16,156 nucleotides of DNA from a bacterium. Its GTDB lineage: Bacteria > JAHJDO01. The position numbers and the translations under genes are program-made. The stretch spans positions 1 through 16,156 of the forward strand of contig JAUSPT010000020.1 in the NCBI GenBank assembly GCA_030652805.1, read 5' to 3'. The notes under the pieces are model-generated. The model ran no database searches. It saw only the letters and a program-made list of their open reading frames with translations, and had not been told where the DNA came from. This document shows, in pieces, positions 11,913 to 15,772 of the stretch (the first letter of the stretch is position 1; each line of letters starts with the position of its first letter).

Positions 11913-13775
11913 TCAAATCTGTGGTCTGCCTATTTCCTTACTTATTCCTAACCATTTATCAAATCCTGTCTTCCATGGAACAATTTTTCGGGCTCTTTCA
12001 TAATTTTCCTGGGCTTTTTCAAGATTATTATTTTTCTGATAAGCTTTTCCAATAAGGAGCCAGGGCAGAGCATAATACTCATAAAAGATAGAAGAACGCG
12101 TTTTCCCCTTTTCGGGGAGAAAAGAATGGTGAAACTGGTAGCTGGAAAATAATTTTTTGTTTATTCTTTCCACCTGTTGAATAGTGGGTGGTCTCTCCCC
12201 AGGGGATAGAAGTCGGATAAGTACACCAGAGGGATAAAACTTCCATTTTTCTTCTCTAAAGCTAGGATGAAAAAAATCTGTGATATAGATGGAAAATCTG
12301 TCAATATTAGCCTGGATAAATTCTTCCACTTTATTCTTTCTATACTTTTCTGCCAATTTTATATTAGGTACATTTGATAGCAATCGTTTGTGACACCAAT
12401 CTAAGCCCAACATTCCCGTCGTCATATGTTGGACATCCCTGCGAATTTCCAGAACTTCTTTTATGTAAAGAAATGCTCCTATATGGGTATCGGTAGAACC
12501 GAGAATTAAGCCATTCTTTTCTACTCCTTTCAATGCATTTATACAATAATCCTGAATAATAGTGTCATTCCTTAAGTTCACCTTTGGATAGTTCAATGGG
12601 ATAAATATCAAAACAGAGAGCGCAATAAGTGAAATTTTACTCCATGCGGATATATTCTCTCTCTTCCATTTTAAGAAAAAGCGTATCCCTTCACACATAA
12701 ATATAACCAGAATTAGATTCGGCATAATATAGAAGCGGCGCACTACAAAGATGCTTAAGCCCCTGAATTCTACATTCATTAAAGATAAGAAGAATACAGA
12801 AGACAAGAGGAAGGAGAGCAGGAATGAGCCATACAGCATCTTCTTGTCAAAAGACCATTTCCTTTTCCGGATGAGTTTAAAAATTGTTACAAAAAGTCCA
12901 AGAACAGCCAGGGCAAGTGGAAAATAAAAAAACTCCCCGGGTAAAGAGAAAAGATATTCTTTTACCTGAACAAAATTAGGTACAGGCACATTGTGAGGAG
13001 AAAACTTGAAGCTGTAATCTTTTCTTAAAACGTGATGAAGCAGTCCTCTCCAGTATTGCGTATAGCCCCAAGCCCAGACCTTTGATTTACTGCCTATGAA
13101 TTTAAGGTAAAGATAGGGGGTAAGTCCAAACAGAAAGAATAATATTCCCAGTCCGTATTCTCTTAGTATTTCTTTCAACCTTTTGCGCCTGCCGGCAAAA
13201 TAGAGACCTGTTAGAAAGACAGGAAAGACTAAAACCACTGTATAATGATTGGAAAGCCCTAATCCAGCCAGTAAAAAGAGTAAGGGAATAGTGTGCCGGC
13301 GGGATTTCAAAGCTGCTAACAGGACTGCGGTTATTATACAGGTATTTAAGGTTCGGACTTCTGCCACTGAGGAATATCTCCAGAAAAGTGGAGTTAAACC
13401 GAATATTGCCGAAGCTAAGCCGGAAGAGAGGATATCCTTCGTTAGTCCAAATAAAAGCAAGAATAAAAGAGCAATAGTTAATGCGCCAAAGAACGAAGAA
13501 GTTAAAGAAACCTTAAAAGCCGGAGTCCCAAATGGCAGATGGCTGAAAACTCTTCCTGCCAGCACATATAAAGGATAACCAGGAGGATGAGGAACTCCGC
13601 CTTTGTAGAGTACTGTCATATATTCGCCGGTATCACCCCCCTGGACGGTCCGTGTACAGGTTGAAGAATAAAGAATGAGAAAGGACAAAAATAAACCAGC
13701 GCTAATTAAATAGAAGTGCGGCTTTAATGTTTTAACCATGCTCTTATAAAACCTGGTTTTTCTTCGCTCAGCCAT
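11913..13775 (-). CDS. DUF2723-family multi-spanning membrane protein with C-terminal TPR-like tail
   Basis: A 620-residue protein. After a basic N-terminus, a first membrane helix (about 22-38) leads to the DUF2723 signature: GGDTGEY (D48, E51) and VPHPPGYPLYVLAGRVF (H63-P-P-G66). About ten hydrophobic segments follow up to about residue 380, then a soluble domain. A TPR-like helix pair (LIGKAYQKNNNLEKAQENYERA, about 575-600) lies near the end. The family resembles GT-C glycosyltransferases, with an acidic D/E motif in the first outer loop, so lipid-linked sugar transfer to an extracytoplasmic acceptor is plausible but unproven. The start at 13775 is supported by GGAGG about 10 nt upstream and makes a 52-nt overlap with the preceding gene. 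An internal ATG at 13739 has a poorer site. Confidence 0.82.
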   Translation of the reverse strand: MAERRKTRFYKSMVKTLKPHFYLISAGLFLSFLILYSSTCTRTVQGGDTGEYMTVLYKGGVPHPPGYPLYVLAGRVFSHLPFGTPAFKVSLTSSFFGALTIALLFLLLFGLTKDILSSGLASAIFGLTPLFWRYSSVAEVRTLNTCIITAVLLAALKSRRHTIPLLFLLAGLGLSNHYTVVLVFPVFLTGLYFAGRRKRLKEILREYGLGILFFLFGLTPYLYLKFIGSKSKVWAWGYTQYWRGLLHHVLRKDYSFKFSPHNVPVPNFVQVKEYLFSLPGEFFYFPLALAVLGLFVTIFKLIRKRKWSFDKKMLYGSFLLSFLLSSVFFLSLMNVEFRGLSIFVVRRFYIMPNLILVIFMCEGIRFFLKWKRENISAWSKISLIALSVLIFIPLNYPKVNLRNDTIIQDYCINALKGVEKNGLILGSTDTHIGAFLYIKEVLEIRRDVQHMTTGMLGLDWCHKRLLSNVPNIKLAEKYRKNKVEEFIQANIDRFSIYITDFFHPSFREEKWKFYPSGVLIRLLSPGERPPTIQQVERINKKLFSSYQFHHSFLPEKGKTRSSIFYEYYALPWLLIGKAYQKNNNLEKAQENYERARKIVPWKTGFDKWLGISKEIGRPQI

Positions 13776-15772
13776 CCAAGAAGTTCCTCCGCTTTTCTCT
13801 CATGCAGAGGATAGCTCAAGTATGTTTCTATTATCTCTCTTATTTTCTTTTTATCAGTTCCTCTCTTTATGCTTTCAGCAAAATCCTCCTTTGCTTTCTC
13901 CACTTTTCCCTGCCATAATCTGACTACGCCTCTCTGCCACAGGAAAGAGGAACCAGTTAATCCTTTAGTATAATGGCTCTCAGCCTGCTCAAGCCAATAG
14001 AAAGCACGTTGAACTAACTCTGCTCTTTCCGGAGCTTCTTCAGAAAATTCCATGGTCTTCTGAAGAATTTCAAGGGCTGTTCTTCCTTCCAGGTTTCCCC
14101 GCATGAACCATGCTATTTTTATATCAGACCTCAGGAGGTTCTTCTCTTTCAAATAATCCAGCATCTCCTGTCGGTTTTTTTTATCACCTTTATTTACAAA
14201 ATGCCTGTATGACGAGGGAGTAGTAAAAGTGCAGACGTCTTCTCTGTCGTACTTGGAGATAAGAGGAGCATTTTTACTTATGCGTGGAACCACTACTATC
14301 CACATATCATCCCAGTATACGGTATGCCACTTATCAGCCAGTTCCCAAAGAGGAATATTATACTTTTGCCACTGAATTATCATAGCGTCTGCGCTTTCAT
14401 CAAAGTATTTTCTCCAGTTTTCGCCGCCCTTTGCTAGTTTCTTTTGATTCAGGAATACCCATGAAGGATAGGTCAGGCATTTCCCGTCAATATAAAATTT
14501 GCTATTCTTAAGATAGAACTCCAGATAGTGTCCTGCGTCATAATCATTATAGATTTTTCCTTTGATTCCCTTATTCATCATGAATTCTACCGCTTTAACA
14601 GGAAGATTCGGGTCTTTTACTAAATTTCCAGCGGAAGGGAGCTCTTTCACAAAAGGGGAAGGGATAGTGGTGAAAGCTACGGCTGCTGTTACGCAAAAAA
14701 ATACTATGGATATTACCCAATTAGAAGCCCCCACCGAAGGTGTTGCAGTTGTCTTTGGCAACTTACTTCTAACGGGGTGAATAAGTTCACTGATCACGGG
14801 AGTAAGCAGAATGAATGAAGACAGAGTAAATAAGCCAAGCTGGCGGCGATACATTAAACTGGATACTCCCAGACCAAGCAGAATGAGAATATGAGAGATT
14901 TTTAAGTGATTTGAGTTTCTTTTTTTTAACGCAAATAAGCTTGCAAAGACTACGAAACATAGAAATAACCACGGCTGAAAAGCGGAAAATTTTAATGGGA
15001 TAGATTTCCATTCCATTACATATTTGAAGACCCATCCAAGAGAGCGTATGTAGAACGCGTATTTCGGAACTTCAATTCCATAGGGGTTGATCAAGCAGAT
15101 ACCCATACAGCCTATTAATAGAAGAATATAATTCTTTACCCCGCTTAGAGATTTAACAAAGCGGAAATACCAAGTGCATTCCCTATCTCTAACGGGGTAA
15201 AAAACTGCCTCTATTATTCCACCGGCTATATAGCATCCTATGACAAAAAAGAGCAGAAGGAACGCTGAGTGAAGATTAGCCCAGATGAGAGTTAAGACCA
15301 AGAAACAGATAAACTTTTTTTTAGTGAGTTCTCCTTCCAAGAGGAGCAAGGAGACTGCCAGAAAAAGGAATGTAAAAAGATAGGGGCGGATTAAAAGCCC
15401 CGTAGCTCCAAACAAAGAGCCTAAAACAAACAGGAATATGACTAGAGGATGGCTGTTTTTTTTCAGGTTGTGATAACTGCATAATGTAAAGGTAAAAGCG
15501 ATCAGCAGGGATTTTATAATAATCAGCCCCAAAAGTCCCCAAAAGCGATAAATCCCCCATAGAATGAGCTGAGCCAGCCAGCAGTAGTTTATAAATATGT
15601 TATGAGGAGTATAAAGAAATGGATTTTGCTGAGGGAATACCCCATTTTCACACATATATCTTCCAAAGGCGAGATGTCCCCAGAGGTCGCATGCGCTTAT
15701 AGGCGTGAAACCAATATAGAATGTTAAAATAAAAACAGAAACGAGTAAAAAAAATGAAGATTTATTAAACAA
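13724..15772 (-). CDS. Large GT-C-like multi-spanning membrane protein with helical-repeat C-terminus
   Basis: A 682-residue protein with a signal-anchor-like N-terminus and roughly ten membrane segments up to about residue 375. The first outer loop reads CDLWGHLAFGRYMCENGVFP (D29-x-W31-x-H33), then NPFLYT and WLAQLILW. This D-x-W-x-H-L-x-x-G pattern recurs in uncharacterised GT-C-like membrane proteins with tetratricopeptide tails. Residues 400-500 form a soluble region with YNDYDAGHYLEFYL, and the C-terminal 130 residues look like TPR helices. The start is TTG (15770-15772) after GGGAG. It overlaps the DUF2723 gene by 52 nt, so the two proteins probably work together in surface polysaccharide or glycoprotein assembly (inference). 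Two palindromic modules are embedded in frame at residues about 191-213 and 331-354. Confidence 0.8.
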   Translation of the reverse strand: MFNKSSFFLLVSVFILTFYIGFTPISACDLWGHLAFGRYMCENGVFPQQNPFLYTPHNIFINYCWLAQLILWGIYRFWGLLGLIIIKSLLIAFTFTLCSYHNLKKNSHPLVIFLFVLGSLFGATGLLIRPYLFTFLFLAVSLLLLEGELTKKKFICFLVLTLIWANLHSAFLLLFFVIGCYIAGGIIEAVFYPVRDRECTWYFRFVKSLSGVKNYILLLIGCMGICLINPYGIEVPKYAFYIRSLGWVFKYVMEWKSIPLKFSAFQPWLFLCFVVFASLFALKKRNSNHLKISHILILLGLGVSSLMYRRQLGLFTLSSFILLTPVISELIHPVRSKLPKTTATPSVGASNWVISIVFFCVTAAVAFTTIPSPFVKELPSAGNLVKDPNLPVKAVEFMMNKGIKGKIYNDYDAGHYLEFYLKNSKFYIDGKCLTYPSWVFLNQKKLAKGGENWRKYFDESADAMIIQWQKYNIPLWELADKWHTVYWDDMWIVVVPRISKNAPLISKYDREDVCTFTTPSSYRHFVNKGDKKNRQEMLDYLKEKNLLRSDIKIAWFMRGNLEGRTALEILQKTMEFSEEAPERAELVQRAFYWLEQAESHYTKGLTGSSFLWQRGVVRLWQGKVEKAKEDFAESIKRGTDKKKIREIIETYLSYPLHERKAEELLGWLSEEKPGFIRAWLKH
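14712..14782. repeat. In-frame palindromic module, copy 1 (71 bp)
   Basis: The outer arms are ATTACCCAATTAGAAG (14712-14727) and CTTCTAACGGGGTGAAT (14766-14782). As inverted repeats they match at all but two positions and one indel. Between them lie two further hairpins, CACC-GAA-GGTG (14732-14742) and GTTGC/GCAAC (14742-14762), so the RNA could form a three-way junction. On the coding (minus) strand it gives HPVRSKLPK...GASNWV, a segment between two membrane helices. It shares the end ACCCCGTTAGA and the size with copy 2. Confidence 0.6.
15135..15201. repeat. In-frame palindromic module, copy 2 (67 bp)
   Basis: The arms are TTTACCCCGCTTAGAGAT (15135-15152) and ATCTCTAACGGGGTAAA (15185-15201), inverted repeats that differ by a single extra base over 17 positions, around a 32-nt centre. 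Read on the minus strand it encodes YPVRDREC...KSLSGVK, also between two membrane helices. The reading frame relative to the arms is the same as in copy 1: the left arm gives P-V-R, the right arm gives S-x-x-V. Confidence 0.65.

Follow-up and report, generated by a model that had tools for sequence, protein, structure and literature searches.

A mobile palindrome family with a 4-bp target duplication and readable frames in many bacterial phyla, and two likely decayed members in one membrane-protein gene

Protein-coding palindromes have so far been described mainly from Rickettsia and its relatives, and their mechanism is still unknown after 25 years. The Rickettsia palindromic elements (RPEs), of 105 to 146 bp and found in Rickettsia and relatives (Ogata et al. 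2000, 2002; reviewed in PMC2229807 and PMC10969869), have been grouped with CGTC-tagged repeats (PMC2229807, PMC3733652); reviews give no known target duplication for them. They are small palindromes that lie in frame within unrelated, often conserved genes, are translated, and have no known transposase, features that they share with the family described here. GTAG/CGTC REPs and REPINs (PMC3733652) resemble it as short, many-copy hairpins, some of them intragenic, with stem bases that vary while remaining paired. Prokaryotic MITEs (RUP, ERIC, Correia/NEMIS) are likewise non-autonomous, with terminal inverted repeats and target duplications, and in-frame fusions are known for several of them, as in this family. 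Integron attC sites are similar in their boxes of the GTTRRRY/RYYYAAC type within a folded hairpin; the box order is reversed, however, and nothing like the 4-bp duplication is known from integrons. We conclude that the family is most aptly described as a new, phylum-crossing variant among the translatable mobile palindromes.

Two modules in one membrane-protein gene

The window (the whole stretch of DNA analysed, 16,156 nucleotides) is contig C20 of a 2.0-Mb draft genome, and its phylum was sampled by five genomes of one genus. One of its genes contains two palindromic modules, which lie near residues 193-213 and 333-354 of the encoded protein:

13724..15772, minus strand: host gene (from the ORF list), encoding a 682-amino-acid polytopic membrane protein with a soluble C-terminal part
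14715..14778, minus strand: element copy 1, 64 nt, flanks TTCA...TAAT, read as HPVRSKLPKTTATPSVGASNWV
14768..14778, minus strand: perfect arm ACCCCGTTAGA of copy 1, exact match, the 5' arm in gene sense
14715..14725, minus strand: decayed arm TCTAATTGGGT of copy 1 (sequence), the 3' arm in gene sense
15138..15198, minus strand: element copy 2, 61 nt, flanks TTTA...TAAA, read as YPVRDRECTWYFRFVKSLSGVK
15188..15198, minus strand: perfect arm ACCCCGTTAGA of copy 2, exact match, the 5' arm in gene sense
15138..15149, minus strand: decayed arm TCTAAGCGGGGT of copy 2 (sequence), the 3' arm in gene sense

On the gene strand, copy 1 has the ends ACCCCGTTAGAAG...CTTCTAATTGGGT (running from 14778 to 14715) and copy 2 the ends ACCCCGTTAGAGAT...ATCTCTAAGCGGGGT (15198 to 15138). 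Relative to the perfect 11-nt arm, the partner arm differs by 2 mismatches (copy 1) or by a single inserted base (copy 2); the decay of these arms indicates that both copies are old. Compared with shuffled sequences, the predicted single-stranded DNA folds gave z values of −2.1 (copy 1) and −5.3 (copy 2), and that of copy 1 places two inner hairpins on one closing stem, forming a three-way junction. Both lengths are 1 mod 3, and the reading frames give PVR...SNWV (copy 1) and PVR...SLSGV (copy 2). With the base composition of the window, about 0.002 arm pairs (counted as one perfect arm plus one partner with up to 2 mismatches) are expected per 2.0 Mb, so that two such pairs in one gene are not due to chance.

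Three of the four flanks have the TNNA form, and no target duplication was matched at either copy (TTCA/TAAT in copy 1, TTTA/TAAA in copy 2). The host protein matched no Pfam family, and no orthologues of its gene were found within the sample of the window's genus. Homologues at 25 to 30% identity occur in 78 of 285 Omnitrophota genomes; in 30 such Omnitrophota homologues, the most frequent loop length is 47 residues at one site (51 in the query) and 58 at the other (57 in the query), and at both sites the loop sequences are dissimilar and too divergent to decide whether anything was inserted. Based on their ends, lengths, and frame, both copies are likely to be insertions, which is not shown. 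As a single joint claim, and leaving the enzyme aside, we consider it likely that the family is a mobile palindrome with a 4-bp duplication and that the window copies are its old, decayed members.

The alternative, that the modules do not belong to the family and arose by chance or as structural RNA features within a loop that is simply variable, is supported by the missing target duplications, the unique interiors, and the homologue-like loop lengths. We regard it as very improbable given the low expectation for arm pairs, two of which lie in one gene, the 1 mod 3 lengths and the family frame PVR...SNGV in both copies, the TNNA form of the flanks, and the presence of a perfect copy elsewhere in the genome. 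In addition, an Rfam search of the window and 16 element-bearing loci yielded no match.

An earlier note, made from sequence alone, had described two modules of 71 and 67 bp in this membrane-protein gene (14712-14782 and 15135-15201), which held with the boundaries refined to 14715-14778 and 15138-15198. Its inverted arms of 16 to 18 nt were slightly generous (without gaps, 13 nt at 85% complementarity in copy 1 and 18 nt at 78% in copy 2). The differing interiors held, as these have no similarity to each other or to any fetched copy, and so did the common frame P-V-R...S-x-x-V and, as a predicted fold, the three-way junction of copy 1. Absence of both segments from orthologues of the host protein was not supported, the homologues at 25 to 30% identity having loops of similar length.

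Ends, stem, and distribution of the family

The window genome carries a perfect 31-nt copy at C56:17538-17568 and a partial copy at C24:92634, the 5' part of which (ACCCCATTAGAGAAAACCACTGACTTTAGTCGGTGG) resembles a 113- to 117-nt long form of the element. A strict pattern, ACCCCRTTAGA-(9-39)-TCTAAYGGGGT with the ends ACCCCGTTAGA/TCTAACGGGGT, matched at least 118 stretches in the contigs of 84,980 species (genome_contigs), with about two chance hits expected in that scan, as estimated from base counts. The matches were found in Omnitrophota, Patescibacteria, Nitrospirota, Desulfobacterota, Planctomycetota, Bacteroidota, Elusimicrobiota, Cloacimonadota, and others, and nearly all carriers are uncultured groundwater or sediment genomes; four viral contigs also contain the pattern. 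Single matches in one isolate or one archaeal bin could represent chance or contamination. Strict copies numbered 1 to 61 per genome in 48 carrier genomes (0 for a reversed-pattern control), and 53 of 285 Omnitrophota genomes had at least one (control, 0). Literature searches returned no paper on a palindromic element with these arms or in these phyla, and no title among the 19 papers containing part of the arm sequence concerned a palindromic element; the family is large and, as far as the literature was searched, apparently unnamed.

The unit has the form CCCCGTTAGA-NNN ... N'N'N'-TCTAACGGGG and a length of about 29 to 156 nt. Its terminal 10 bases are invariant across phyla, the first 11 nt being fixed by the search itself. 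Among 129 distinct sequences, 95%, 81%, and 63% were paired at positions 12, 13, and 14, respectively, with several types of base pair, and pairing was about 25% from position 15 on. A stem of 13 to 14 bp is thus maintained, the inner bases of which vary yet stay paired, while the loop is free; the interiors are highly diverse among copies and interchangeable. In G015, a 113- to 117-nt multihairpin form (L347:19579-19694 and other loci) is present beside a 33-nt form, which corresponds to the 3' terminal hairpin of the long form, and a related 113-nt unit was found in G016, a record not labelled Omnitrophota (L273:1541-1653). In another genome, G005 (L027, L073, L236-L249), most of the approximately 60 copies lie within a larger intergenic repeat, gagcggttagaaaattgagc[element]aaggttttgtaaccaatcg, a nesting in which a second repeat family carried the palindrome along. 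The 61 copies of this genome were left out as evidence for independent insertion, since they are mostly nested in this way.

Insertion and candidate enzymes

Insertion of the copy on C56 is seen directly from natural empty sites. Genomes G000 (to which the C56 copy belongs) and G002 contain the 31-nt copy inside an ABC-transporter ATPase gene, and two genomes of the same genus, G001 (88% identity) and G004 (83%), are shorter there by exactly 33 nt: the empty site is GACCTATTTATTAG, and the filled site is GAGCTGTTTA-CCCC...GGGG-TTTATTAG. An exact 4-bp TNNA duplication was present at 179 of 291 distinct copies (0 to 5 in shifted-window controls). The target TTTA/TAAA was used more often than expected (134 versus 42), and the symmetric target TTAA was sharply avoided (2 versus 18), suggesting that the target is read in a strand-specific manner. 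Reconstructed empty sites have the context G-TNNA-C. Among the 75 strict-set copies without a repeat, 45 have kept T...A on both sides, which we infer to be what recombination between copies would leave; from the intact duplications, we also infer that the 31-nt units are mobile as such and are not deletion remnants. For the family, it is shown that insertion creates a 4-bp duplication, that the ends are fixed, that a 13- to 14-bp stem is conserved, and that the frame is preserved. The mechanism becomes testable, given a defined end, a measured duplication, natural empty sites in closely related species, and copies in the hundreds.

We propose that the window modules are old copies of a non-autonomous mobile palindrome on which a transposase encoded elsewhere would act in trans, recognizing the fixed ends; this enzyme was not identified. 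It may require a folded form of the element, hairpin or cruciform, and would make a 4-nt staggered, strand-specific cut at the target TNNA, after which gap filling would create the 4-bp duplication. Horizontal transfer would carry the palindrome between phyla, a step offered together with the occurrence of an identical 31-mer, ACCCCGTTAGATAGTAAACATCTAACGGGGT, in viral contigs and in records that carry the labels Omnitrophica, Elusimicrobia, and Nitrospiraceae. Three viral contigs (L145, L147, and L148) have one 31-nt copy in common, located at one site with a TGAA duplication, and could be a vehicle for this spread. No autonomous element with the palindrome's ends was detected in about 640 kb of the element-rich genome G015 or in the other fetched loci, and no parent element was found among the arm positions in G043, a search that was not exhaustive.

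One alternative, which we judge rather unlikely, is that these are REP-type hairpins moved on single-stranded DNA by RAYT/Y1 (IS200/IS605-like) tyrosine transposases. Like REPs (PMC3733652), the units are small hairpins in which the ends are fixed and the stem bases vary but stay paired. Of 32 genomes that bear the element or are of the same genus, 29 contain Y1_Tnp genes, and the asymmetric target preference is compatible with single-strand targeting. Against this, a 4-bp target duplication is not expected from IS200/605 chemistry. The palindrome also lacks a GTAG or CGTC tag, with TNNA on both sides in place of GTAG beside the hairpin, and differs from REPs in its longer fixed stem (13 to 14 bp) and clear target duplication. 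None of the 30 Y1 loci examined has a palindrome copy at the gene ends, so the REP trait of flanking a RAYT gene is not met, and no Y1 match was obtained in G051 (18 copies), G009, or G012, all draft genomes. Linkage to RAYT/Y1 was dropped, as Y1 genes are common and none examined is flanked by the palindrome. At L202, a different hairpin, ATGAACGAGG...CCTCGTTCAT, is located on both sides (38-68 and 790-820) of a Patescibacteria Y1/RAYT-like gene and is probably the REP of that RAYT gene itself.

A second alternative is a classical MITE, in which the units would have arisen by internal deletion from a DDE insertion sequence that has CCCCGTTAGA ends and makes a 4-bp TNNA duplication. The family meets the MITE traits of terminal inverted repeats (ACCCCGTTAGANNN, paired to position 14) and of a target duplication of fixed length, seen also at the natural empty site, and the coexistence of 113- to 117-nt and 33-nt forms in one genome, with a related long form in another, also speaks for it. 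However, no parent insertion sequence was found in the loci examined, only about 10 bases are fixed at each end, with a variable paired inner stem, and the units are as short as 29 to 31 nt and range across phyla. A 31-bp duplex would, we infer, be too short to bend into a normal paired-end complex; recognition of the ends as duplex would not predict the matched variation seen at positions 12 to 14 inside one and the same genome, and TTAA is avoided as a target. On balance, we lean against this explanation.

A third alternative invokes a serine-type recombinase and a circular intermediate, the junction GGGGT-NN-ACCCC of which would recombine with T-NN-A targets. A 2-bp duplication enclosed by T..A describes the repeat just as well, hardly any self-complementary NN occur, and the core of the junction is identical to the target consensus GTNNAC. 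Within one subfamily and one orientation, however, NN is AA, GA, TC, or TT; the dinucleotide is therefore not carried with the element, the idea of a heritable dinucleotide was dropped, and this explanation appears unlikely.

Returning to the trans-acting transposase, a bolder reading is that one class of minimal hairpin transposon (minimum, about 29 to 31 nt) is still in circulation, crosses phyla, is recognized partly by shape (the 13- to 14-bp stem, with inner bases free if paired), inserts at TNNA by means of an unidentified enzyme, writes peptides into essential proteins, and lands recurrently at the prepilin motif. We would not favor this reading over its negation, nor the reverse.

Reading through genes

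Both ACCCCGTTAGA and its complement contain a stop codon in only one of the three frames, and in-gene copies read as PVR...SNGV (20 copies) or TPL[DE]...LTG[FY] (10 copies). Of 33 in-gene copies, 30 had a length of 1 mod 3, compared with 43 of 84 copies outside long frames (Fisher P = 4e-5); a copy of such length together with the 4-bp duplication is a multiple of three, so that the frame is kept. The in-gene excess is partly expected, because an out-of-frame insertion breaks the long frame that is used for gene calling. Outside genes there was an excess as well (P = 7e-4 against one third), possibly reflecting favored sources of suitable length. Since the lengths of a unit and its duplication usually add up to a multiple of three, and since the arms have a stop in only one frame of three, in-gene copies are read through and persist as short peptide inserts. 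The genes that host them in frame are often essential and include those for GlyRS (glycyl-tRNA synthetase), PolA, MurB, and Fpg. In a PolA, precisely the 18 residues contributed by the element are absent from Taq polymerase, and alignments of GlyRS, Fpg, MurB, and the ABC ATPase with solved relatives have gaps at or beside the insert.

The RPE trait of in-frame insertion with an open frame is thereby met, and the RPE length, CGTC-tagged end, and host range (Rickettsia and its intracellular relatives) are not: the palindromes described here are 29 to 156 nt long, have ends of the type ACCCC...GGGGT with fixed ACCCCGTTAGA, a 4-bp TNNA duplication, and two readable frames, and are spread over many phyla. 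The resemblance to RPEs suggested in the earlier note accordingly held for behavior and failed for sequence, ends, and distribution. Mobility, which it had only inferred, held for the family by natural empty sites and 4-bp duplications, and the supposed selection to remain translatable is matched by in-gene copies that do stay translatable. Further copies were found in the same genome and far beyond it; RAYT/TnpA-like transposase genes were present, none of them tied to the palindrome; and the statement that no named element has these ends held in the literature searched. One recurring element places peptides into essential proteins in many phyla. This affects how genes are called and proteins aligned in uncultured bacteria, where PVR...SNGV and TPLE...LTGF segments are element derived.

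The cleavage motif of type IV prepilins, G-F-T-L-[IVLM]-E, is the exact landing site of thirteen copies, which come from three or more phyla (Omnitrophota, Phycisphaerae, and Riflebacteria). The prepilin codons GGN-TTT-ACN supply the preferred target GTTTAC, and the right end of the element rebuilds L-T-G-F-T-L at the motif. Copies at this motif were observed at L051, L064, L082, L092, L119, L120, L339, and L359. In a radical-SAM-like protein, a 67-nt copy (L278:1483-1549) lies in frame directly after a CNAQCPFC motif.
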